Origin: Betaproteobacteria bacterium
Lineage (GTDB): Bacteria; Pseudomonadota; Gammaproteobacteria; Burkholderiales; Burkholderiaceae
Assembly: GCA_009927445.1 (NCBI GenBank)
Contig: RFMZ01000191.1
Location: forward strand, 1-64,000
Direction of reading: 5' to 3'
Length of the DNA stretch: 64,000 bases
Positions 2,010 to 51,849 of this stretch are shown in pieces; positions within the stretch are counted from its first letter, which is position 1; each line of letters opens with the position of its first letter. Below the pieces are notes generated by a model that saw only the letters and a program-made list of their open reading frames with translations, did not search any database and was not told the DNA's origin. A program made the translations under genes and the position numbers.

Positions 2010-4037
2010 ATGATGCGTTATTTAAACGATTTAAAGATTAGTTTTGCCGTAATTTTGGCTGGTGTTTGTCAAATCACCTCAGCTCAAAATCAGGCTAGTG
2101 ATAGCTCTATGGAGATAGTTGTAAGTGGTCAGAGCGAAATTGGTAAAAGCATATTAAGTCCTAGTCATATTTTAAGTGGTGATGAATTACAAGTGAAGAC
2201 AAGAAGTAGTTTGGGTGATACTTTGGCAAATGAGTTGGGTGTTTCTAGTTCTGGGTTTAGTACCGGGTCTTCAAGACCCGTTATTCGCGGGTTAAGTGAT
2301 CAACGCGTTCAGATTCTACAAAACGGGATGTCAGTCAATGACTTATCTAGTTTATCCAACGACCACGGCGTCGCTAGTTCATTACAAAATGCTTCTCAGA
2401 TTCAGATTCTTCGGGGTGCTGCTGCTTTAATGTATGGCTCAGGATCAAGCGGTGGTTTAGTCAATATAATTAACGACCGTATTCCGACAGCACTACCCGA
2501 AGAAGCTACTGGCGAGTTTAATACCAGTTATGAATCGAATAACCAGGGTAAAACTGGTTCAGCAATGTTAGAGACATCTAGTGGTCCACTGGCTTTTCAT
2601 ATGGATACATCGGTGCGTAATGCGAATGATTACAAAATCCCGGGATATAGAAAAAGTGGCGACAAGAGTACTTACTCAGGTAAATTACCTGACACTTTTC
2701 ATTATCAAAATAATTTGGGTTTGGGGGCCTCTTTCATCGGCAAGTCGGGCTATACAGGAGTTTCGGTAGAGCGGCTTAATAGTCAGTACGGTGTTCCAAG
2801 TGAAAAGGGGAGTTCAATCGAAATGTCGCAAAATCGTTATGACTTGCAACATCAAACGCGTACACCTTTGAGCGGATTTTCTGAGTTAAACCTTGGGATT
2901 TCAAGAAGTGCCTATACGCACACCGAGTTTGAGAGCAGTGGTACAGCCGCATCTTTATGGAAGAACGATGGTTTAGAGTTCAGAGCGACCATGGAGCATT
3001 TACCTTTAAAGGGTTTTAAAGGGCTGTTTGGGATTCAATCCTCGCAAAATAAGTTAAGTGCTACAGCAGTTGAAACGAATCTATCGGCAATTGTTCCTAA
3101 AACATCAACCACCTCTAATTCTCTTTTTTGGGTTGAAGAGGGTGTGTTGGGACAATTTAGAAATAGTTTAGGCGTACGGTATAACCTTGTAGCTCAAAAT
3201 CCAGATGCAGCGAGTCGTTTTTCTACAGACGGAAATATCGCAACAGCTCTTCCTAGCCTCAGCGCCAAAAACTTTAATTTACTATCATATGCTGCAGGTA
3301 GTTCGTGGGAGTTTATGCCAAATTATAGCTTAGGTTTGTCATATACCCATTCGGAAAGAGCTCCTAACGCCCCTGAGTTATATGCCTATGGGGCGCATGA
3401 AGCGACAGCACAATTTATTATTGGCAATCCAAACTTACAAAAAGAAAAATCAAATAACCTTGAGTTGAATCTTCAGAAAAAAATGGGTTTAGTTCAGGGG
3501 CGAATGAATTTATATCTGAATCGATTTACGAATTTTATTTATGGATCTAGGACGGGTGAATCAAGTGGTGATGGCGATTCTGTCTATTTATCAAGTCAAA
3601 AAGATGCGGTCATTAAGGGTGCTGAAGCCGAGTTGACTCATAATTGGAAAAAGGTGGGAATTGGTTCTAGGATATTTGGTGACATATCACAAGGGACATT
3701 TACTTCGGGTGGAAATTTACCGCTACAACCGCCACCCCGAATCGGAATTGAGCTGGCGCACATCAAGAATCAATGGTTGATGAATACAACGCTAATTCAT
3801 GCATATGAGCAAACCAAGTTAGCTAGTTTTGAAACAACGAAAAGTCCTTCATATAACTTATTAAACGCCAGTGTTTCTTATAATGAGAAAATAGATCAGA
3901 TGAAGGTAACAGCTTACCTACGCTTGACGAATTTGCTGAATCAAGAAATTCGTTACTCTACAACTCCAGAAACAGTCAGGTTGTGGGCACCTCAAATGGG
4001 CAGAAGTATGATGGTTGGTGTGCGAGGGGCTTTTTAG
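2010..4037 (+). CDS. TonB-dependent receptor, ZnuD-like
   Basis: This is an outer-membrane receptor of 675 residues. The signal peptide ('LKISFAVILAGVCQITSA') is followed by a plug domain containing 'RPVIRGLSDQRVQILQNG' and 'LRGAAALMYGSGSSGGLVNI', then a 22-strand barrel ending in aromatic-poor 'MMVGVRGAF' with the terminal Phe typical of Bam substrates. The segment 'APNAPELYAYGAHEATAQF' followed by 'IGNPNLQKEKSNN' is the strand pair I associate with zinc (ZnuD) and heme receptors. The track starts at a GTG (1977), but ATG 2010 has a GGAG seven bases upstream and gives a normal signal peptide. It probably forms an operon with the His-rich protein at 1495. The zinc substrate is an inference. 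Confidence 0.8.
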   Translation: MMRYLNDLKISFAVILAGVCQITSAQNQASDSSMEIVVSGQSEIGKSILSPSHILSGDELQVKTRSSLGDTLANELGVSSSGFSTGSSRPVIRGLSDQRVQILQNGMSVNDLSSLSNDHGVASSLQNASQIQILRGAAALMYGSGSSGGLVNIINDRIPTALPEEATGEFNTSYESNNQGKTGSAMLETSSGPLAFHMDTSVRNANDYKIPGYRKSGDKSTYSGKLPDTFHYQNNLGLGASFIGKSGYTGVSVERLNSQYGVPSEKGSSIEMSQNRYDLQHQTRTPLSGFSELNLGISRSAYTHTEFESSGTAASLWKNDGLEFRATMEHLPLKGFKGLFGIQSSQNKLSATAVETNLSAIVPKTSTTSNSLFWVEEGVLGQFRNSLGVRYNLVAQNPDAASRFSTDGNIATALPSLSAKNFNLLSYAAGSSWEFMPNYSLGLSYTHSERAPNAPELYAYGAHEATAQFIIGNPNLQKEKSNNLELNLQKKMGLVQGRMNLYLNRFTNFIYGSRTGESSGDGDSVYLSSQKDAVIKGAEAELTHNWKKVGIGSRIFGDISQGTFTSGGNLPLQPPPRIGIELAHIKNQWLMNTTLIHAYEQTKLASFETTKSPSYNLLNASVSYNEKIDQMKVTAYLRLTNLLNQEIRYSTTPETVRLWAPQMGRSMMVGVRGAF

Positions 4038-4051
4038 TATCAAACTTTGTA

Positions 4052-4069
4052 ATCCCCTGCAATGGGGAT
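4052..4069 (+). terminator. Short hairpin after the TonB receptor
   Basis: ATCCCC and GGGGAT form a perfect 6-bp stem around a six-base loop, 15 bases after the stop codon. No T-tract follows, so it is at best a weak terminator or an mRNA 3'-end stabiliser. Confidence 0.3.
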
Positions 4070-4232
4070 CATGTATATCGTTCGTCTTCCTAGATGACTT
4101 TGTGCATGATCAAGTTTGCTGATATGACCGGGTGTAATTTCTTGTTGGTTCAAAACGGTTCTCGGATATGAAAGCTAGAAATTAATCCTGCAGTCGTTTA
4201 AAATAAAGATGAAATCTTTTAAAAGGAGATAT

Positions 4233-4382
4233 ATGATGCGCAGTTTGATTCGATATACCTTATTTGTAATTGCAATTTTTCAACTTTCAGCTTGTAATAC
4301 AATTGCAGGTATGGGGGAGGATATTAAGAAATCAGCTGATTGGACCAAGGAGAAAATTACTCCTGTAGAAATTAAAAAATAA
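4233..4382 (+). CDS. Entericidin-family small lipoprotein
   Basis: The ORF of 49 residues is missing from the supplied track. It starts at the first of two tandem ATGs behind a strong ribosome-binding site (AAAAGGAGAT). A hydrophobic stretch ends in the lipobox 'LSAC', followed by 'NTIAGMGEDIKKSADW', which is the hallmark segment of EcnA/EcnB entericidins. The mature peptide is about 29 residues, lipid-anchored and amphipathic. Entericidins were described as a toxin-antidote pair of bacteriolytic lipoproteins in E. coli. Only one is seen here, and in many Proteobacteria single copies are envelope-stress genes. It sits alone between the receptor and the convergent MFS gene. Confidence 0.8.
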   Translation: MMRSLIRYTLFVIAIFQLSACNTIAGMGEDIKKSADWTKEKITPVEIKK

Positions 4383-42728: not shown

Positions 42729-43691
42729 TTACTCTACTTTCAGATCAATTGCTTTGACAATTTTTGCATACTTAGTAAACTCACTTTTCATGAAGTCACC
42801 AAATTCAATTCGGCTATTACGCCTAACTAAAATGCCATCTTTTTCAAGATTCTTTTTAAAGCTAGGATCCTCTAAGATCATATTGATGTTTGTATTTAAG
42901 TAATTGAGGATTTCTTCAGGAGTTCCTGTTGGAGCATATACACCGCCCCATAATGTAAAACTAAAGTCTTTTATGCCCTCTTCAGCGACTGTTTTTACAT
43001 CCGGTAGGGCTGTAGTTCGTTTGATTGATGAGACTGCCAAGGCGCGTATTTTTTTAGATTCTACAAATTGTAGTATTGAAGGTGTGCTAGGGAAGAACAT
43101 ATCAACATGTCCTCCTAGGACATCGGTCATTGCAGGCCCTGCTCCTTTGTATGGGGCGTGAGCCATGTCAATCCCAGCTGCTTGGCTAAGTGCGGCAGCA
43201 GCAAGATGGCCTGGCGTTGCAGTGCCAGAAGAGGCGTAAGTCATTTTCCCGGGATTTGCTTTTGCACCTTTGATTAGTTCTGATAAATTAGTATAGGGAG
43301 AATTGGCTGGTACCACTAAAGTCAGTGGAACTTCACCAATGATGGCAATCGGCTTTAAATCCTTGTTTGGGTCATAGCCGAGATCTTTGGTCACAAAGGT
43401 ATTGATGACCATTTCACCTGTTTGTCCAAGTAAAAGTGTATAGCCATCTGGCTTTGATTTGGTGACATAACGGCTTCCTAGTGCGCCTGTGGCACCTGGC
43501 TTGTTTTCTACGATAAAACTTTGTTTTGTTCGAGTAGTTAATTGCTCTGCAATTTGTCTAGCTAGAAGATCTCCAAGGCCACCTGGGGCATAGGTCACAA
43601 CAATAGTAACTGTTTTATTTGGGTAAGTACCTTGGGCAAATAGGCAATAGGGTAAAAAAAAGAGGGCAAGTAGCAAGATATGCTTTTTCAT
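42729..43691 (-). CDS. Bug/TctC binding protein, first gene of PrpD operon
   Basis: The 320-residue protein has signal 'HILLLALFFLPYCLFAQG'. The pocket is 'TVTIVVTYAPGGLGDLLARQ', where the acidic residue of the GG loop is shifted (GGLGD). 'VENKPGATGALGSRYVTKSK' and 'HAPYKGAGPAMTDVLGGH' follow. It opens the five-gene operon and is divergent from the ThDP enzyme gene. The 265-base region between them contains the perfect AGTATTTACT palindrome, so the two units may share a regulator. Confidence 0.87.
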   Translation of the reverse strand: MKKHILLLALFFLPYCLFAQGTYPNKTVTIVVTYAPGGLGDLLARQIAEQLTTRTKQSFIVENKPGATGALGSRYVTKSKPDGYTLLLGQTGEMVINTFVTKDLGYDPNKDLKPIAIIGEVPLTLVVPANSPYTNLSELIKGAKANPGKMTYASSGTATPGHLAAAALSQAAGIDMAHAPYKGAGPAMTDVLGGHVDMFFPSTPSILQFVESKKIRALAVSSIKRTTALPDVKTVAEEGIKDFSFTLWGGVYAPTGTPEEILNYLNTNINMILEDPSFKKNLEKDGILVRRNSRIEFGDFMKSEFTKYAKIVKAIDLKVE

Positions 43692-43865
43692 AGATAAACT
43701 TTCTTAATGTGGATTGTTACAACTTAAACATTTGAACTTATTTGACCGGTAGCGTATTTCCATGATTATATGTTTAATATTCTTGGCACCCGAAATAGGG
43801 CATATTTAAGAAGCAGACGTGATACCGAGAGTTCTGAGGATATTCGCTAAAATTGAAATGTAAAT

Positions 43866-43891
43866 AGTATTTACTATCAGCAGTAAATACT
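43866..43891. promoter_or_regulatory. Perfect 10-base palindrome, operator candidate
   Basis: AGTATTTACT-atcagc-AGTAAATACT is a perfect inverted repeat in the divergent region, 65 bases before the GTG start at 43957. AT-rich arms and a 6-base spacer suit a dimeric repressor or activator. Twelve of its bases recur at 18251. Confidence 0.5.
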
Positions 43892-43956
43892 TTGTTTTAT
43901 GATGTTGAATGGCAGAAGTAATTAGAGAACAATAAAATCATATTAAGGAGATATCC

Positions 43957-45638
43957 GTGTCAGAAAAAATGACAGGTGCAAAATACTTTGCACGATTATT
44001 AGAGGCTTATGGCGTAACCCATGTTTTTTTCATGGACGCTGTCCTTCGTCGAGCTTTAGCCGAAATGGAAGATACAAACATTATGCGTGTACTTGGCCAT
44101 TCAGAAAAAGGGGTAGGTTACATGGCGGATGGCTATGCGCGGATTTCTGGTAAGCCCGGGTTGTGTTTTGCGCAGTCTGTGGGCGCTGCTAATTTGGCGG
44201 CTTCCCTGCAAGATCCTTATTTGGGGCATTCCCCAGTAATAGCCATGACTGGGCGTCATGTGTCGGCGATGCAGTACCGTAACTCATATCAAGAAGTGGA
44301 CCATGCCCCGTTATATGCGCCAGTTACTAAATTTCATGGGCAGATGGAGGTCATTGAACAAATGCCCCATTTAATTCGGCAGGCTTTTCGGGAGGCGACT
44401 AGTGGGACACCCCGACCAGTTCATCTGGATGTTGCAGGGTTTACTGGAGACGCTATTACTCCCTTAGAAATTAACCAGCCAATTGATGTTGATTCGGCGC
44501 ACACGATTTACCCAGCCTTTAGACCAGCCCCTGACGCACGCGTAGTTCAACAGTCGGTCGATGCCATTGCTAAAAGTAAAAGACCGGTATTATTGGAGAT
44601 CGTGGCGTAACTATATCCCAGGCTGGATCAGCTATGTGTGCCCTTGGCGAAAGAATTGGTGCTCCAGTTACCACCACACTAGATGCCAAATCAATGATCC
44701 TAGAGACGCATCCGTTATTTAGAGGGATGGTAGGCACTTACGGTCGAAGTTGTACAAATCATATAGTTGATGAAGCTGATTTAATCATTTATTTAGGAAG
44801 TAACACAAGCGATCATACGACAGCAGGTTGGACTATGCCTAAATCTGGGACACCGATTATTCAGATAGATATTGACCCAGTCGAGCTGGGTAGAAATTAC
44901 CCCAATACGATTGGAATGTTATGCGATGTCCGAACTGGCTTAGAGGTCTTAACAAAGGCTGTACAAGGTAGTCAGCACGATGACTGGCTAGCTTATACCA
45001 AGAAATTGGTAGACGACTGGTGGCAAGAACAAGCTGTTGATCTGAATCGCCAGACTAGTCCTATTCGTCCACAACAACTTTGCAGAATGCTTACGGAGGT
45101 ATTGCCAAGTAATGCAATTGTGGTCGCAGATACGGGTTATTCAGCATTGTGGTCTGGTAATTTTGTTGAAATGCGCCATCCTGGACAAACCTTCATAAGA
45201 GCTGCAGGTTCTCTAGGTTGGTCATTTCCAGCTGCCATTGGAGCTAAAGCTGCGGCGCCTGATCGGCCGGTAATTTGTTTTACTGGAGACGGTGGATTTT
45301 CTTATCACTTACCTGAGTTAGAAACCGCCCGAAGGTGTGGCTTAAAGACAATCACCATCGTGAATAACAACCATTGCTTATCTCAGGGACTTAAGAATTT
45401 AAACATTGCTTATGGATCGCGTGAGCAGGGGAGAAAATCCGAGTGTTATGTTTATTTAGAAACTGATTTTGCGAAGATTGCTCAATCTTTTGACTGCTTT
45501 GGCATTACTGTAGAAAAGCCAGGCGACTTTAAGGCCGCCTTTGCTGCTGCTCTTGCAAGTGAGCTTCCAGCCGTGATCGACGTCAAGACAGAATTTGCTT
45601 ACCAAGCTGAAATGGCTTGGATCCCGGGGGCTAAGTAG
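43957..45638 (+). pseudogene. ThDP-dependent acetolactate-synthase-like enzyme, frameshifted
   Basis: Two adjacent ORFs (217 and 334 residues) make one protein of about 560. The N half has the ThDP-activating Glu in 'LGHSEKGVGYMADGYARISG', and the C half has the ThDP-Mg motif 'FTGDGGFSYHLPELETARRC' with 'IVNNNHC'. The first ORF stops right after 'KSKRPVLL'. Shifting frame at about 44595 (tta-tt-ggagat) continues 'GDRGVTISQAGSAMCALGER', so a single base is missing. The 677-base offset of the two starts agrees. GTG start with AAGGAG upstream. ThDP enzymes of this shape decarboxylate or condense 2-oxo acids. Separate halves would not be expected to work. Confidence 0.82.
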
Positions 45639-45657
45639 AGTGCTTTAGTATTATCCA

Positions 45658-45695
45658 CATTGAACATGCCATAGTTTTTTGTGGCATGTTCAATG
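45658..45695. terminator. Long perfect hairpin between convergent genes
   Basis: CATTGAACATGCCA and TGGCATGTTCAATG form a perfect 14-bp stem around a ten-base loop containing six Ts. It lies 20 bases after the ThDP gene stop and 35 bases from the convergent amidohydrolase stop. The stem is long enough to end transcription from both sides, although a trailing T-tract is missing. Confidence 0.5.
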
Positions 45696-45730
45696 ACGGA
45701 TTGCATTACCTAGGAAAAGCTTTATTTGCT

Positions 45731-46594
45731 TTAAAAGCCAAATAACCTAGCTGGGTTATCAGTCAAAATTAACCTTCTAATATGTTCGTCTGATGTCCAT
45801 CTACCTAGTAAATTAAATAACTCTACTGAACTATGTTCTGCAAATGACAAGTGTGGATAGTCACTGCCCCAAATAATCCGATCTGGAGCGCAAGCAATCA
45901 AAGCTTTTACTAATGGATCAGCATCAATAAATTGAGGAACTTTTGACATTCTATAAATTCCAGTTAGTTTGACATATGCTAGGCGATTGCCATGGTTCAT
46001 CAGTTCTAATAATGCTTTAAAGCCCGGTGTATCCACCCCATCTTTTGCTAAATTCATACCTAAATGAGCCAATGAAAAAGGGATAGTCAAGCGTCGCATT
46101 ACAGGCAGTAATTCAGCAGTTAGCCATCCAGGAAGGAGAAAGTCAAGATGCCAACCAATTTCTTGACAGCGCTGCGCTATTTTTTCAATTCTTGGAATCA
46201 TTTTGTCTGCAAGTCCTGGTGTCAGAGGGAAAATTGGACTTACATTAATCCTGACTCCTCGAACACCCAGCGCATTCATTTTTAAAATTTCTAAATCAGT
46301 GATGTTTTCATCGATGTCTACCACACCTCGACAACTATTTTTATCAAGTGTTTGCATGACATCTAACATGCAGCGATTATCTCTACCATAAGCGCTTGGC
46401 TGGACTAAGACAAAACGACTAATACCAAGAAGTGTAGCTAATTCTTGGTATGAATTCCATGGTGCTTCTGGAGGGGCATAGCGTAACTCGCTACCATATG
46501 GGTATTTTTCTGCTGGCCCAAAAATATGAAAATGGGAGTCACAAGCATCCGCTGGTGCAATAAAAGATACTTTTTCTCCTAAATGAAAAGACAA
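45731..46594 (-). CDS. Amidohydrolase, PDC-hydrolase-like (COG3618 type)
   Basis: The 287-residue TIM-barrel hydrolase shows 'ADACDSHFHIFGPAEKYPYG' (HxH metal site, residues about 15-34), 'PFSLAHLGMNLAKDG' (His) and 'RIIWGSDYPHLSFA' (catalytic Asp). This layout matches 2-pyrone-4,6-dicarboxylate hydrolase and related lactonases or decarboxylases. It is last in a minus-strand operon of BNR protein, maleate-isomerase-like protein, Bug binder and this enzyme. Ring opening of a lactone, or hydrolysis of the acid imported by the Bug protein, is inferred. Confidence 0.8.
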   Translation of the reverse strand: MSFHLGEKVSFIAPADACDSHFHIFGPAEKYPYGSELRYAPPEAPWNSYQELATLLGISRFVLVQPSAYGRDNRCMLDVMQTLDKNSCRGVVDIDENITDLEILKMNALGVRGVRINVSPIFPLTPGLADKMIPRIEKIAQRCQEIGWHLDFLLPGWLTAELLPVMRRLTIPFSLAHLGMNLAKDGVDTPGFKALLELMNHGNRLAYVKLTGIYRMSKVPQFIDADPLVKALIACAPDRIIWGSDYPHLSFAEHSSVELFNLLGRWTSDEHIRRLILTDNPARLFGF

Positions 46595-46619
46595 AATAAA
46601 TACTCCTTATCGTTAAAAG

Positions 46620-47606
46620 TTAGTTTAGATTTACTTTGATGTCAGCCCGTTTGATGACTTCTTGCCATACCATGATTTCATCTTTTATTTGTTTGGAGAA
46701 GTTAGCGGGAGTTGTGGCGACTGGTCGAACACCCGCTCCTGAAAAAACCTCCTGTACTTTTGTAGTATTAATCGCAAAAGATATTTCCTGTTGCATGGCC
46801 TCGATGATCGCTATCGGAGTTCCGGCTGGGGCCATCATGCCAAACCAGTACATCATTTGATAGTTAGGAAAACCAGATTCAGCAAATGTTGGTAAATTAG
46901 GAAATTGTGGATGCCTATTAGGACTACTGATTGCTATACCAATCAGTCGACCATCTTTAATGTAAGCACCTGTCGAACCAATACTACCAATGGCTAGATC
47001 AATTCGCTCTGCTGCAACATCAATTACTGCGCCAGCGATACCTTTAAATGGTATATGTGTCATCATGATTTTGTTTTGATTTAAAAAACCCTCCATTGCC
47101 ATATGCGCTGAAGAACCAATTCCGCCAGAGCCAAATGTAAAATGATTTGGATGTTGTTGGGCATACTGTACGATCTCTTTTAATCTTTTTTGAGGTAAGT
47201 TAAGTCTCCCAATCAGGATAGCGGGAGAGTCGGCCAATAAAGAGACTTGGACTATATCTTTTTGAGGCTGATAGGGTAGTTTGTCATATAAGGCGGCTGA
47301 GACTGCAAATGAATTATCAGTAACTAAAAAGGTATAGCCATCAGGATTTGCTTTAGCAACTGTATCGGTACCAAGAGTGCTACCGGCGCCCCCTTTGTTT
47401 TCAATAAAAACTGTTTGACTTGTACGTTTTGCGATTTCTGAGCCCACGACTCGTGCTGCTGTATCTGTAAAAGATCCTGGTGCAAATGGGACGATAACTC
47501 GAATACTCTTTTGTGGCCAATTACTCGTTTGAGAATACGTCTGATTAATACCTGTCCCGAGTAATGTCAAAAAAATTAAAGATGGTATTTTTTTAAAGAA
47601 TTGCAT
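46620..47606 (-). CDS. Bug/TctC binding protein
   Basis: The 328-residue protein has signal 'IPSLIFLTLLGTGINQTYSQ'. The binding loop is 'VIVPFAPGSFTDTAARVVGS', in which the usual GG is G-S-F-T, a change in the pocket relative to the other copies. 'IENKGGAGSTLGTDTVAKAN' and 'MTHIPFKGIAGAVIDVAAE' follow, with YKG changed to FKG. It lies between a maleate-isomerase-like gene (7-base gap) and an amidohydrolase (25-base gap). The pocket changes suggest a ligand different from those of the other binders. Confidence 0.86.
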   Translation of the reverse strand: MQFFKKIPSLIFLTLLGTGINQTYSQTSNWPQKSIRVIVPFAPGSFTDTAARVVGSEIAKRTSQTVFIENKGGAGSTLGTDTVAKANPDGYTFLVTDNSFAVSAALYDKLPYQPQKDIVQVSLLADSPAILIGRLNLPQKRLKEIVQYAQQHPNHFTFGSGGIGSSAHMAMEGFLNQNKIMMTHIPFKGIAGAVIDVAAERIDLAIGSIGSTGAYIKDGRLIGIAISSPNRHPQFPNLPTFAESGFPNYQMMYWFGMMAPAGTPIAIIEAMQQEISFAINTTKVQEVFSGAGVRPVATTPANFSKQIKDEIMVWQEVIKRADIKVNLN

Positions 47607-47613
47607 AGGAATC

Positions 47614-48294
47614 CTAGTTTGTTGAATATTGCATTAAGTATTTAGCGGTGACTTGGATAGATGATAAGACAGGTTTACTAAATTCTTCACTAAGTAGTTC
47701 ATTAATTTCAAAAGTTGGTAATTGTGAGCAAGCTATAAATAGCGCATCAGCATCCGGCCGCCAAAGTTTTTGAGCACGTAATTTGACTTCGGTGGCAGTG
47801 ATTTGACCGAGTGCTGTTACGTTAGCAGCATAAAAGCTATCAAAATACTTTACTGAAATTCCTGCACAACCGAGAAAATACTTCAGTCGCGTATTGACAT
47901 CCTCCTGGTAGGGCGTCAACAGCGCAATTGATTTAGCTTGGATTGCTTGCAAGGCTAAGACCATTGATTTTGCTGTTGTGACGACGCGTTTCCCAGTTAC
48001 TTGAGATATTCTCATTGACATTTCTGCATCACCATCAGGCCCTAAAATAAAGCCAGCAGCAGTGCAACCATAAGCAACAGCATCATAACAAGCATCAGCC
48101 GCTTGTGCGCAAAGTTCAATAGTTGTTTCTTTATATGCTGGTAGCGTATCTTTATTTAATAAACCAGGACCACGCGGGATGCGCACTAACGAACAACTTG
48201 AGCCCGCAGGTAGCCAAGCTAGTAGCTCGCTTGACATCGTGGTGTTATTGGCTGGGATAATCAGCATAATTTTTAGGGGTTGCTTAATTGTCAT
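47614..48294 (-). CDS. Asp/Glu racemase superfamily, maleate-isomerase/AMDase-like
   Basis: The 226-residue protein begins 'IMLIIPANNTTMSSELLAW', the N-x-T pattern that holds the carboxylate in maleate isomerase and arylmalonate decarboxylase. The two catalytic cysteines are expected in 'AVAYGCTAAGFILGPDG' (Cys about 77) and 'ALFIACSQLPTFEI' (Cys about 187), and both are present. It would isomerise or decarboxylate a dicarboxylic acid. It sits between the BNR gene and a Bug gene, with short gaps. It differs from the racemase at 26267, which has another N terminus. Confidence 0.8.
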   Translation of the reverse strand: MTIKQPLKIMLIIPANNTTMSSELLAWLPAGSSCSLVRIPRGPGLLNKDTLPAYKETTIELCAQAADACYDAVAYGCTAAGFILGPDGDAEMSMRISQVTGKRVVTTAKSMVLALQAIQAKSIALLTPYQEDVNTRLKYFLGCAGISVKYFDSFYAANVTALGQITATEVKLRAQKLWRPDADALFIACSQLPTFEINELLSEEFSKPVLSSIQVTAKYLMQYSTN

Positions 48295-48319
48295 AGGGCA
48301 GAATATTTTTTACAGAGGA

Positions 48320-49360
48320 TTACCGAAAGATTGTTAGTGGTGGGCGTGTTGTAACTGCGTGCGGTGGGCGGTCGTCAGGATAATCTGTTGTCCGCCAATG
48401 AAGGGCTCGGATTTCGCCAAACTGATGTGGTAGAAGAAGCCATTTATTTCCTGCATCATCGCTCCGAAAGACCTGACCTAAATTGGTTGCCAGGAAGATT
48501 AGTTGAGGGTTAGTGGGGTGTATAGCGATACACCATGGGGTGCTATGGAGTTGATTTGGCAATTTGATTTCACTAAAACTCTCTCCAAAATTTTCGCTTC
48601 GAAGCAATTTACCTGAGTCTCCCGGCGGCCCATTACCATTTGTCAGCCAAATCACGCTAGGATTATTTTCTTGTCGAGTGATTGCTCTAGTATATTGCCA
48701 TGGAGATTGTAGTGGAGTCATTTCCCATGTTTGTCCCGCATTTAAACTTCGGTGAAGACCTCGGTTCGTAGTCGCTAAATAGATTTTTTCTTGGGCGGTA
48801 TTTTTTGTAATTAAAATACCATGAACATCAATTGAAACTAGGCCTTGTACCTTCATTTCCCAGGTTTGGCCAAAGTCTTTGCTATGAAAAATGCCACCGA
48901 TTTCTACTGTTAACCAAATTTGAGCAGAGTCGTAGGGATCTATTAATAGTTGGGTACAACGCGTGGGACCCATGTTTACATCAGAAAAATCGACTAAATT
49001 AGGTATTGGTATATGTTGCCAGTTTAGTCCACCATCTAAGGACTTGTAAAAGCTAGCAGGCCGAGTACCTGCATATAGAATCTGCGCATTATTAGGGTCT
49101 TGAGTAAGCGCCCAAACTTCTTTCATTGGCGATGGAAGACTAGTCCACCTAGTAGTGTATTCATCCCAGCGAAACAAGCCCATATCAGTGCCAGCATAAA
49201 GAAATTGCTTATCCTTTAGATGACTTGAAAAACACCAGACACGAGCTTCTAAGTACATTCCCGAATGGCTATTAGGATGTAACCATGAGGTACCTTGGTC
49301 GGAACTAAACCAGGCAGAGTGTCCGGCTGTGCCTATATAGACTTCAACTCGATTAGTCAT
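48320..49360 (-). CDS. BNR/Asp-box beta-propeller protein
   Basis: The 346-residue protein is built from repeated Asp-box hairpins: 'SSDQGTSW', 'SLDGGLNW', 'SKDFGQTW', 'SLNAGQTW', 'SENFGESF' and 'SDDAGNKW', six to seven blades about 45-55 residues apart. This is the sialidase/sortilin/YCF48-like propeller. The catalytic arginines of sialidases are not evident, so it is not a sialidase. No signal peptide is visible, so it appears cytosolic, unusual for this fold. It is first gene of the operon with an isomerase, a Bug binder and an amidohydrolase. A scaffolding, lactonase-like or binding role is possible, and none is proven. Confidence 0.78.
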   Translation of the reverse strand: MTNRVEVYIGTAGHSAWFSSDQGTSWLHPNSHSGMYLEARVWCFSSHLKDKQFLYAGTDMGLFRWDEYTTRWTSLPSPMKEVWALTQDPNNAQILYAGTRPASFYKSLDGGLNWQHIPIPNLVDFSDVNMGPTRCTQLLIDPYDSAQIWLTVEIGGIFHSKDFGQTWEMKVQGLVSIDVHGILITKNTAQEKIYLATTNRGLHRSLNAGQTWEMTPLQSPWQYTRAITRQENNPSVIWLTNGNGPPGDSGKLLRSENFGESFSEIKLPNQLHSTPWCIAIHPTNPQLIFLATNLGQVFRSDDAGNKWLLLPHQFGEIRALHWRTTDYPDDRPPHAVTTRPPLTIFR

Positions 49361-49555
49361 TGCGCCCTAGAAGGAATAGTCATACGATATAGGTTGAATT
49401 GATCTTTATTATATGCAAAAGTGTGTCTCAGTAATATTAGGTTAAGTATGGAGATATGGCTAGTTAAGGATTTATCTTTGGGGATATTTTTGACGCTGGT
49501 AAAGTAATCGGTTGGCTAATTCAAGGTTGCAGTCCAAAAATTGCTGCATGATGTT

Positions 49556-49569
49556 GATTAAAATCAAAC
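49556..49569. promoter_or_regulatory. Perfect FNR/CRP-family box
   Basis: TTGATtaaaATCAA matches the FNR consensus at all ten defined bases, 70 bases upstream of the Bug gene ATG at 49640. It is the second perfect copy in the window. Redox or NO control of this binding protein is inferred. Confidence 0.5.
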
Positions 49570-49639
49570 GCCTCAGGATTAAACGACATACCATACAATA
49601 ATTTTTTACAACAAGTTACAACAATAATCTGGAGGCCTC

Positions 49640-50620
49640 ATGTTTTTTCGAGCACTTTTTGTAAAGATATTAATTATCATACAAAGCTTATTTTTGATTC
49701 AAATTTCAAATCTTCATGCACAAAGTTATCCTAATAAATCAATTCATATCACTATTGGTTTTCCGCCTGGAGGAGCAATCGATACCATCATGCGAGTGAT
49801 GGCTCCAAAAATGTCTAAACAATTGGGACAATCTGTTGTGGTTGAAAATAAAGCTGGCGCCGGAGGTATTATTGGTATGCAGTACGTTGCTAGAACCGAG
49901 GCTGACGGCTACAACTTGTTTATGGGGACAATGGGGAACTTTAGTATTACACCTGCTTTAGTCAAAGATTTACCATATCAGGTATATAGAGATTTTCAGC
50001 CTATTACTCAGGTAGCTGCATCTCCTTTTATTATTTTTATTAATCCACAACTACCTGTCAAGACCTTAGCGGAATTGATTGCATTCGCTAAAGCAAACCC
50101 AAAGAATGTTTATTTTTCTTCAAGTGGTAATGCAGGCCTACCGCATATGGCTGGTGAGATGTTTAATCAAGCTACGGGTACGCAAATGATCCATGTGCCT
50201 TATAAAGGTAGTGCTCCGAGCATTACGGACCTGATGGGTGGGCAAGTTCAGTTAACTTTTGAGGCGATTGCTATTGGTTTGCCACATTTAAAAAGTGGCA
50301 GACTGAAGGCGCTTGCCACTACAGATAACAAAAGATTAACGATACTGCCTGATTTGCCTGCTGCGGCGGAGACGGTTCCGGGATATGTGGTGAAAAATTG
50401 GTTTGGATTAGCCGCACCTAGTGGCATTCCAATGGATAGGGTTTTACTAATCCAAAAGGTTGTATCACTTGTGTTACAGGACCCCGAGGTTCTGAAAACA
50501 TTAGTGGATTTAGGCGTTGAGCCCATAGGAGATTCACCTAATCAGTTTGGGGCTTTAGTTCGGCAAGAGACTGAGCGATGGCAAAAACTGTTACAAAACT
50601 CAGGCATCAAGTCGGATTAG
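49640..50620 (+). CDS. Bug/TctC binding protein with FNR-type box
   Basis: The 326-residue protein has signal 'KILIIIQSLFLIQISNLHAQ'. It shows 'SIHITIGFPPGGAIDTIMRV', 'VENKAGAGGIIGMQYVARTE' and 'IHVPYKGSAPSITDLMGGQ'. It is a single gene: the BNR gene is divergent upstream and amtB convergent downstream, so no enzyme partner indicates its ligand. CTGGAGG precedes the ATG. Alone among the Bug genes here, it has a perfect FNR-type site in its promoter region. Confidence 0.87.
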   Translation: MFFRALFVKILIIIQSLFLIQISNLHAQSYPNKSIHITIGFPPGGAIDTIMRVMAPKMSKQLGQSVVVENKAGAGGIIGMQYVARTEADGYNLFMGTMGNFSITPALVKDLPYQVYRDFQPITQVAASPFIIFINPQLPVKTLAELIAFAKANPKNVYFSSSGNAGLPHMAGEMFNQATGTQMIHVPYKGSAPSITDLMGGQVQLTFEAIAIGLPHLKSGRLKALATTDNKRLTILPDLPAAAETVPGYVVKNWFGLAAPSGIPMDRVLLIQKVVSLVLQDPEVLKTLVDLGVEPIGDSPNQFGALVRQETERWQKLLQNSGIKSD

Positions 50621-50645: not shown

Positions 50646-51849
50646 CTACCAGTTTGTTTCGCGGTCTGGCGTGGCAGAAATTTTATGGATCGTTAGATCC
50701 GCGCCCTCAAACTCATCTTCGGCGCTCATCCGAATTCCCATGGTTGCCCTGAGGATACTATATAAGATCGTGCTGCCAATGACTGCGATTAGAACTCCGA
50801 GGCCGCTGCCGATCAATTGTGCTGTGAAATTGACTCCGCCCATACCACCAAACTCTGGTGTTCCAAAGATTCCTGCGGCCAATCCGCCCCAAAGGCCACA
50901 AAGACCGTGGAGGGGCCAGACACCAAGTACGTCATCAATTTTCCAACGATTTTGAACGAGGATAAACATATATACAAATAGTCCTCCAGCAATTAGCCCC
51001 ACAGCTAATGAGCCCAGAGGGTGCATGATGTCGGAGCCAGCACATACTGCAACTAGACCAGCTAATGGCCCATTGTAGGTAAAACCGGGATCGTTTCTAC
51101 CAATTAACCAAGCTGAGAGGGTACCTCCTACCATTGCCATTAATGAGTTAATAGCAACTAAGCCACTGATCTTATCGATCGTTTGTGCACTCATGACATT
51201 AAAGCCGAAACCAGCCCACTGCCAAGATCCATGCACCTAAGGCCAAGAATGGGATATTGGAAGGTGGATGAGAGGCAATACCGCCATTTTTTAAGTAACG
51301 TCCTTGCCTAGCGCCTACCAATAGGATGGCTGGAAGAGCAATCCAACCCCCGACTGCATGAACCACAATCGAGCCTGCAAAATCATGAAATTCATGACCG
51401 GTTTTTGCAAGTATCCAAGCTTGGATACCATAATGCTGATTCCATGCAATGCCTTCGAAGAACGGATAGATAAAGCCGACAAGAATGAAACTAGCGATTA
51501 ATTGAGGGTGAATCTTGGCACGTTCAGCGATACCTCCAGAGACGATAGCAGGGACAGCAGCTGCAAAGGTTAGCAAAAAGAAGAATTTAACCAATTCAAA
51601 GCCGTTTTTTTCTGACAAGGTACTTGCGCTCGAGAAAAAGTCAACGCCGTAAGCAATGCTATAGCCAATAAAAAAATAGGCAATCGTTGAAACAGCAAAA
51701 TCAACTAGGATTTTAACGAGGGCATTGACTTGATTTTTCTTTCTAACTGTCCCAAGTTCTAGAAAAGCAAATCCTGCATGCATGAACAACACTAGGATAG
51801 CCCCTAATAAAATAAATAAAACATCGGTACCAATCTTTACTTGTTCCAT
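50646..51849 (-). pseudogene. amtB: AmtB-type ammonium transporter, frameshifted
   Basis: Two overlapping reading frames (216 and 196 residues) together give a normal Amt protein of about 400 residues. The first runs from 'DVLFILLGAILVLFMHAGFA' to 'GAWILAVGWF', and the second continues 'GFNVMSAQTIDKISGLVAIN' to the C terminus. The pore is visible in both parts ('FAGSIVVHAVGGWIAL' with the first pore His, and 'VWPLHGLCGLWGG' with the second). One extra C at about 51203 (TGGTTT-C-GGCTTT on the minus strand) explains the break. Otherwise conservation is intact, so a sequencing error or a very recent mutation is likely. No glnK lies next to it. NtrC-like sites precede it. Confidence 0.85.

Follow-up and report, generated by a model that had tools for sequence, protein, structure and literature searches.

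The window analysed here is a stretch of 64,000 nucleotides from a bacterium of the order Burkholderiales (contig RFMZ01000191.1). It carries four minus-strand genes separated by gaps of 25, 7 and 25 bp, which encode, in the order of transcription, an Asp-box (BNR) propeller, an isomerase-like protein, a Bug/TctC binding protein and an Amidohydro_2 protein. The first-pass annotation of this DNA had described a propeller at the head of an operon with an isomerase, a Bug binder and a lactonase-like enzyme, and this description agrees with the strand and spacing of the genes. Our main subject is the propeller gene (48320..49360, minus strand), the first of the operon, whose intact open reading frame (ORF) begins with ATG and encodes 346 amino acids.

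Six good Asp-boxes can be recognized in the propeller (SSDQGTSW at residues 19-26, SLDGGLNW at 107-114, SKDFGQTW at 160-167, SLNAGQTW at 205-212, SENFGESF at 255-262 and SDDAGNKW at 300-307), as well as a degenerate seventh box (WDEYTTRW, 65-72), which confirms the earlier count of at least six. The protein scores above the cut-offs of the Pfam models BNR, Sortilin-Vps10 and PSII_BNR, and the Asp-box match is therefore not due to chance. The boxes are spaced by about 45 residues, as in seven blades; judging by this spacing, the propeller is probably seven-bladed, and the C-terminus would close the ring in the usual way by supplying the last blade with its inner strand. The solved structures related to it by sequence, each with only partial coverage, are GH74 enzymes, 3b7f, Ycf48 and sortilin.

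Propellers of the Asp-box kind usually work outside the cell; those known are exported glycosidases, sorting receptors and assembly factors. In this protein, as previously noted, no signal peptide is found: the N-terminal hydropathy maximum is 0.42, compared with 2.25-2.95 in the neighbouring Bug proteins. The start position is common to most orthologues, and a cytosolic location is supported. It had also been claimed that sialidase arginines are missing. This is correct in that there is no match to a sialidase domain and no FRIP motif in the translation, so the combination of such a domain with FRIP and an arginine triad was not found. However, the propeller has arginines of its own (R40, R134, R225 and R318) at the starts of inner strands. 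We rejected assignment to the F510_1955 family of glycosylhydrolases (NF045728; 92.5 bits against a curated cut-off of 175) and to the Ycf48 equivalog (NF010237; 44 bits against 326). The filing of the propeller as a glycosidase or sialidase was likewise rejected because the scores fall short of the family cut-offs.

Conserved residues and gene linkage

Conservation was scored first in 12 orthologues and 8 distant members, and then in 29 sequences. A set of residues outside the Asp-boxes persists down to 23% identity, and we refer to six of these as the signature. R134 (codon at 48959..48961; all codons are on the minus strand) is the first residue of an inner strand, and is present in 28 of 29 homologues, with His in the other. 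The remaining five are present in all 29: E153 (48902..48904) in loop 2-3, and the pairs D178-x-H180 (48821..48829) and Y223-x-R225 (48686..48694), each of which spans loop 4-1 and the start of an inner strand. In addition, S273 is kept in 28 of the 29 sequences. Blade segments were assigned by residue distance from the Asp-box. Invariant positions account for 41 of 110 positions in the top-face segments (loops 4-1 and 2-3 together with the residue that opens each inner strand) versus 18 of 152 other non-box positions (p = 2e-6, which is indicative and not blind, as the segments were drawn by hand after the alignment had been viewed). The seven inner strands begin with R, V, R, H, R, W and R. 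If the blade register is correct, the signature residues lie on the top face, which is the functional, ligand-binding face of known enzymes among Asp-box propellers (PMC2716378).

The signature is all-or-none: it is complete in the subfamily and scarce in other BNR proteins. Genome searches yielded 20 BNR loci, five of which have all six signature residues, while a 5'-truncated locus keeps the four that remain to it and the other 14 have at most two of the six. Three of the five complete loci (L017, L021 and L034) were outside the alignment that defined the signature. The 14 non-signature proteins include some with export-like N-termini (e.g., L011, L015, L016 and L020) as well as a type marked by 'GTRKG'. 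No signal peptide is evident in any signature member, with the start sites of some being uncertain. The propeller of the window combines R134, E153, D178, H180, Y223 and R225 with the lack of a signal peptide, and it is by this combination that we propose to define the subfamily.

Orthologues that are 43-60% identical to the propeller occur in several families of the order. Homologues are sporadic: they were found in 16 of 300 genomes of the order at 1e-20, some of them distant, and in 15 of 399 genomes at 1e-40. A class-wide search, in which weaker matches were left unexamined, found no close orthologue outside the order. Scanning genome contigs with the single propeller protein gave only one distant match, in Gemmataceae, and scanning viral contigs with the propeller alignment gave none.

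We identified neighbouring genes by tblastn; ORF calling in high-GC neighbours produced shadow frames. The propeller gene is linked to those of the isomerase and the amidohydrolase in the same genus (group f1) and in two other families (f3 and f13). This amounts to 11 genomes including the window, among which we count one (G270) whose contig ends after the propeller and amidohydrolase. The order is isomerase-propeller-amidohydrolase in f13, and the Bug gene is additionally present in f1 and f3. The f3 set is looser, with a VOC gene and an acyl-CoA-dehydrogenase-type gene between its members in G111, and MFS and IclR genes interposed in G155. An HpcH/HpaI-family aldolase gene adjoins the amidohydrolase in three genomes (G046, G239 and G724). 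Because genomes contain 4-50 PF04909 genes each, a neighbour of this kind within 3 kb would arise by chance a few per cent of the time. The first-pass annotation was to be abandoned if the linkage were unique to this genome or if conserved surface residues were lacking. Given that the linkage recurs in three families and that strongly conserved residues fall in the predicted top-face segments, neither refutation holds.

Members of the propeller family also occur in other catabolic contexts. The Caballeronia-type members (about 52-54% identity) adjoin genes for a GMC oxidoreductase and an SDR protein, and four of five have a divergent amidohydrolase gene of another type; these five include one on the plasmid of Caballeronia sp. 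NK8 and exclude G1044, which is seemingly nearly the same strain. The gene order in G350 is MmgE/PrpD-BNR-Bug-TauD, two more members adjoin a TauD gene, and PhyH genes lie beside the BNR gene in G297 and G268. Signature propellers beside TauD- or PhyH-type iron dioxygenases (L044, L045, L046, L081 and L083) make these a second recurrent partner in addition to amidohydrolases. In G198, one small contig (L048) carries two signature-type propeller genes (569-1063 and 3271-4239) with a Bug gene between them, which suggests a local duplication.

Distant members (23-33% identity) lie in an operon of the order thiamine pyrophosphate (TPP) enzyme-SDR-BNR-VOC-AA_synth-alpha/beta hydrolase-flavin hydroxylase-NIPSNAP-aldehyde dehydrogenase, seen in Burkholderia, in three Burkholderiaceae genomes and, in partial form, in family f4. 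At five loci (L053, L077, L078, L079 and L049) there is a conserved operon of about ten genes that looks like a meta-cleavage pathway not yet assigned; it encodes a TPP enzyme, aldehyde dehydrogenase, SDR, BNR, VOC, AA_synth, alpha/beta hydrolase, flavin hydroxylase, NIPSNAP and a further aldehyde dehydrogenase. Other distant members are flanked by SDR and aldehyde dehydrogenase genes (Rhodococcus JS3073), grouped with VOC, amidohydrolase, SDR and FAH genes (Novosphingobium US6-1 and Caballeronia grimmiae) or adjacent to an amidohydrolase gene at two sites (G065). The arrangements observed include VOC-BNR-amidohydrolase with FAH, and BNR-aldolase-binding proteins-VOC-amidohydrolase-FAH. Like the propeller of the window, the distant members appear to be cytosolic. 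The catabolic operons that hold the family are of several unrelated kinds.

Neighbouring genes in the window

The second gene of the operon (47614..48294, minus strand) matches the Pfam models Amdase and Asp_Glu_race, and its product would belong to the superfamily of Asp/Glu racemases, maleate isomerases and arylmalonate decarboxylases (AMDase); we would not carry the assignment below superfamily level. It scores 73.6 bits with the AMDase equivalog (cut-off 225) and 67.8 bits with that of EutA (cut-off 318), and its nearest solved structure is maleate isomerase (2xec/2xed). C77 and C189 are invariant in eight orthologues. Maleate isomerases and Asp/Glu racemases have this two-cysteine layout; a single cysteine is present in AMDase.

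The amidohydrolase (45731..46594, minus strand; TTG start after AAGGAG) is of the cog3618 type, which includes LigI and sulfomuconolactone hydrolase, and it matches the 2-pyrone-4,6-dicarboxylate (PDC) hydrolase structures 2ffi and 4d8l. D19, H21, H23, R115, N117, H177, R215 and D245 are invariant in nine homologues. In comparison with LigI, D19, H21, H23, R115, H177, R215 and D245 are kept, but the alignment lacks the arginine that LigI has six residues after the counterpart of R115. This second arginine is one that LigI uses for its substrate, and the kept residues correspond to those with metal-binding or catalytic roles in cog3618 lactonases. The model for 4-sulfomuconolactone hydrolase (NF042924) was rejected, at 181 bits against a curated cut-off of 500. 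The protein is best described as probably cog3618-like, again at the level of the superfamily.

The Bug/TctC protein of the operon (46620..47606, minus strand) has both of the features that we use for this family, namely a PF03401 domain (TctC; 4e-64) and an export signal, seen as a hydrophobic N-terminus with a signal peptide. A second Bug gene (TctC; 49640..50620, plus strand) is divergent from the operon, and a homologous gene, likewise divergent, adjoins the propeller gene in two further genomes, at L036 (65%) and L039 (47%). With a further one at 42729-43691, three Bug/TctC genes lie within 8 kb. No TctA or TctB transporter genes were noticed among the ORFs listed at 42729-50620. A promoter scan found fewer sites than in shuffled sequence, and we claim no promoter.

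Two genes nearby appear to be broken. An acetolactate synthase-like thiamine-diphosphate enzyme (43957-45638, plus strand) is split around 44608 into two frames, with the N-terminal domain in one ORF and the central and C-terminal domains in the other, which may be a real frameshift or an assembly error. At 50646-51849 (minus strand), two overlapping ORFs in different frames resemble one split gene of the ammonium-transporter type. Two broken genes within 8 kb may point to indel errors in the draft genome.

Proposed role and known systems

We propose, with a probability of about one half, that the propeller is a cytosolic enzyme on a seven-bladed Asp-box fold, within a distinct subfamily whose hallmarks are R134, E153, D178-x-H180 and Y223-x-R225. 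The signature residues would line one pocket atop the central channel, where the arginines would hold a carboxylate group of the substrate, and E153, D178/H180 and Y223 might perform the acid-base chemistry of an isomerisation, lyase or hydrolase reaction. The substrate would be an unsaturated or lactone-forming carboxylic acid. Outside the cytoplasm, this acid may be bound by the Bug protein of the operon in the window; it might then be broken down in successive steps by the propeller, the two-cysteine isomerase and the cog3618 hydrolase. A broader proposal, which we make more tentatively, is that the whole subfamily consists of cytosolic propellers that share an R-E-D-H-Y-R active site and that they act, in many different pathways, at one undescribed step whose substrates are carboxylated intermediates of the ring-cleavage or lactone-forming kind. 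Carboxylated catabolic intermediates would be the most likely targets of these propellers. The signature is kept down to about 23% identity while the partner enzymes change, and this suggests that the members have the chemistry of a ligand in common, and not a protein partner.

Several points weigh against this proposal. The pocket is derived from the blade register and not from coordinates, with the hand-drawn segments mentioned above, and the single-sequence AlphaFold2 model is unusable (predicted local distance difference test, pLDDT, 33.6). R40 and R318 are missing from most distant members. Moreover, an Asp-box protein can be conserved and yet not be an enzyme, as in the case of Ycf48. 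The main rival, which we consider less likely, is that the propeller is a non-catalytic cytosolic helper: it would act as a sensor, a scaffold or a Ycf48-like assembly factor by binding the substrate, a pathway intermediate or one of the partner enzymes. The assembly factors Ycf48/HCF136 are indeed among its sequence matches, and the variation of partner genes across operon classes makes it hard to name one chemistry. COG4447 proteins in aromatic regulons have been proposed to help cells cope with toxicity (PMC6449761), but the genes that accompany those, encoding RND exporters and DUF1302, were not seen beside the signature family. The persistence of six polar residues to about 23% identity, despite changing partner enzymes, also argues against a helper.

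It is improbable that the propeller is a glycosidase of the cytosol, one that would strip imported plant phenolics or glycosides of a sugar or sugar acid so that they can be broken down. GH33 and GH74 glycosidases are Asp-box propellers, GH74 enzymes are the best solved relatives by sequence, and the Tyr, Glu, Asp and several Arg residues of the propeller recall the sialidase inventory. However, no model for a glycoside hydrolase reaches its cut-off (NF045728 included), the alignments with GH74 and 3b7f show neither R134 nor E153 to be kept, and the Bug and cog3618 partners indicate organic acids. The first-pass annotation had suggested a cytosolic propeller enzyme or a lactonase. A cytosolic propeller in an organic-acid operon agrees with our results, and an enzyme is its most likely nature, as far as the sequences allow this to be inferred, but nothing indicates that the propeller hydrolyses lactones. 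The lactonase label finds support only in the cog3618 amidohydrolase next to it. That the propeller itself is a lactonase or a lactonising cycloisomerase is quite improbable: it has no sequence match to the propeller folds that do lactone chemistry (6-phosphogluconolactonase, SMP30 and fungal carboxymuconate cyclase), and the neighbour from a lactonase family, which might hint at such a role, already gives the operon a dedicated lactonase-like enzyme.

If the proposed enzyme is real, it would represent a missing enzyme or binding step in the use of plant-derived or aromatic acids by soil and water bacteria. Members carry the annotation 'sialidase family protein' or 'hypothetical protein', and the catabolic subfamily is thereby obscured. 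The six-residue signature sorts true members from other BNR proteins and points to residues for mutation. The Asp-box fold class is already known; what would be new is the cytosolic, signature-bearing catabolic subfamily. We found no BNR protein with these partners in the literature searched, whose coverage left out most subscription papers.

Several known systems share some of these features. The protein 3b7f (YP_299179.1) of Ralstonia eutropha, to which no function has been assigned, consists of a single Asp-box propeller with seven blades (PMC2716378), as our protein probably does. Its similarity to our propeller is only local, with the best stretch at 82-173; Met occupies the R134 position and E153 is not kept. 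R. eutropha belongs to the same order. The 'GTRKG'-type proteins of related genomes are also single propellers, but have at most two of the six signature residues. Judged by E-value, the closest solved structures are those of GH74 xyloglucanases and oligoxyloglucan cellobiohydrolase (1sqj, 2ebs and 2cn3), which are secreted tandem double propellers that act on polysaccharides and do not keep the signature in the aligned part. Ycf48/HCF136 (PF14870, COG4447) is a seven-bladed Asp-box propeller, as ours probably is, and PF14870 is above its cut-off on part of our propeller; however, the setting differs, and Ycf48 is exported.

Two systems resemble the family in their catabolic setting. The fde, ifc and asd pathways for plant phenolics, with a flavin hydroxylase, a glyoxalase-type dioxygenase and an alpha/beta hydrolase, resemble in their gene logic the class III operons in which distant members are found; a BNR protein is absent from the descriptions of ifc and asd. 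In the AphR/AphS/AphT aromatic regulons of Betaproteobacteria, COG4447 genes are an example of an Asp-box-type protein in aromatic catabolism; they are grouped with RND exporters, PF07044 and DUF1302, and stress tolerance was proposed (PMC6449761). PF07044, like the other companions of these genes, was not seen adjoining the signature family. These COG4447 genes are the nearest precedent for the propeller, and they look different from it.

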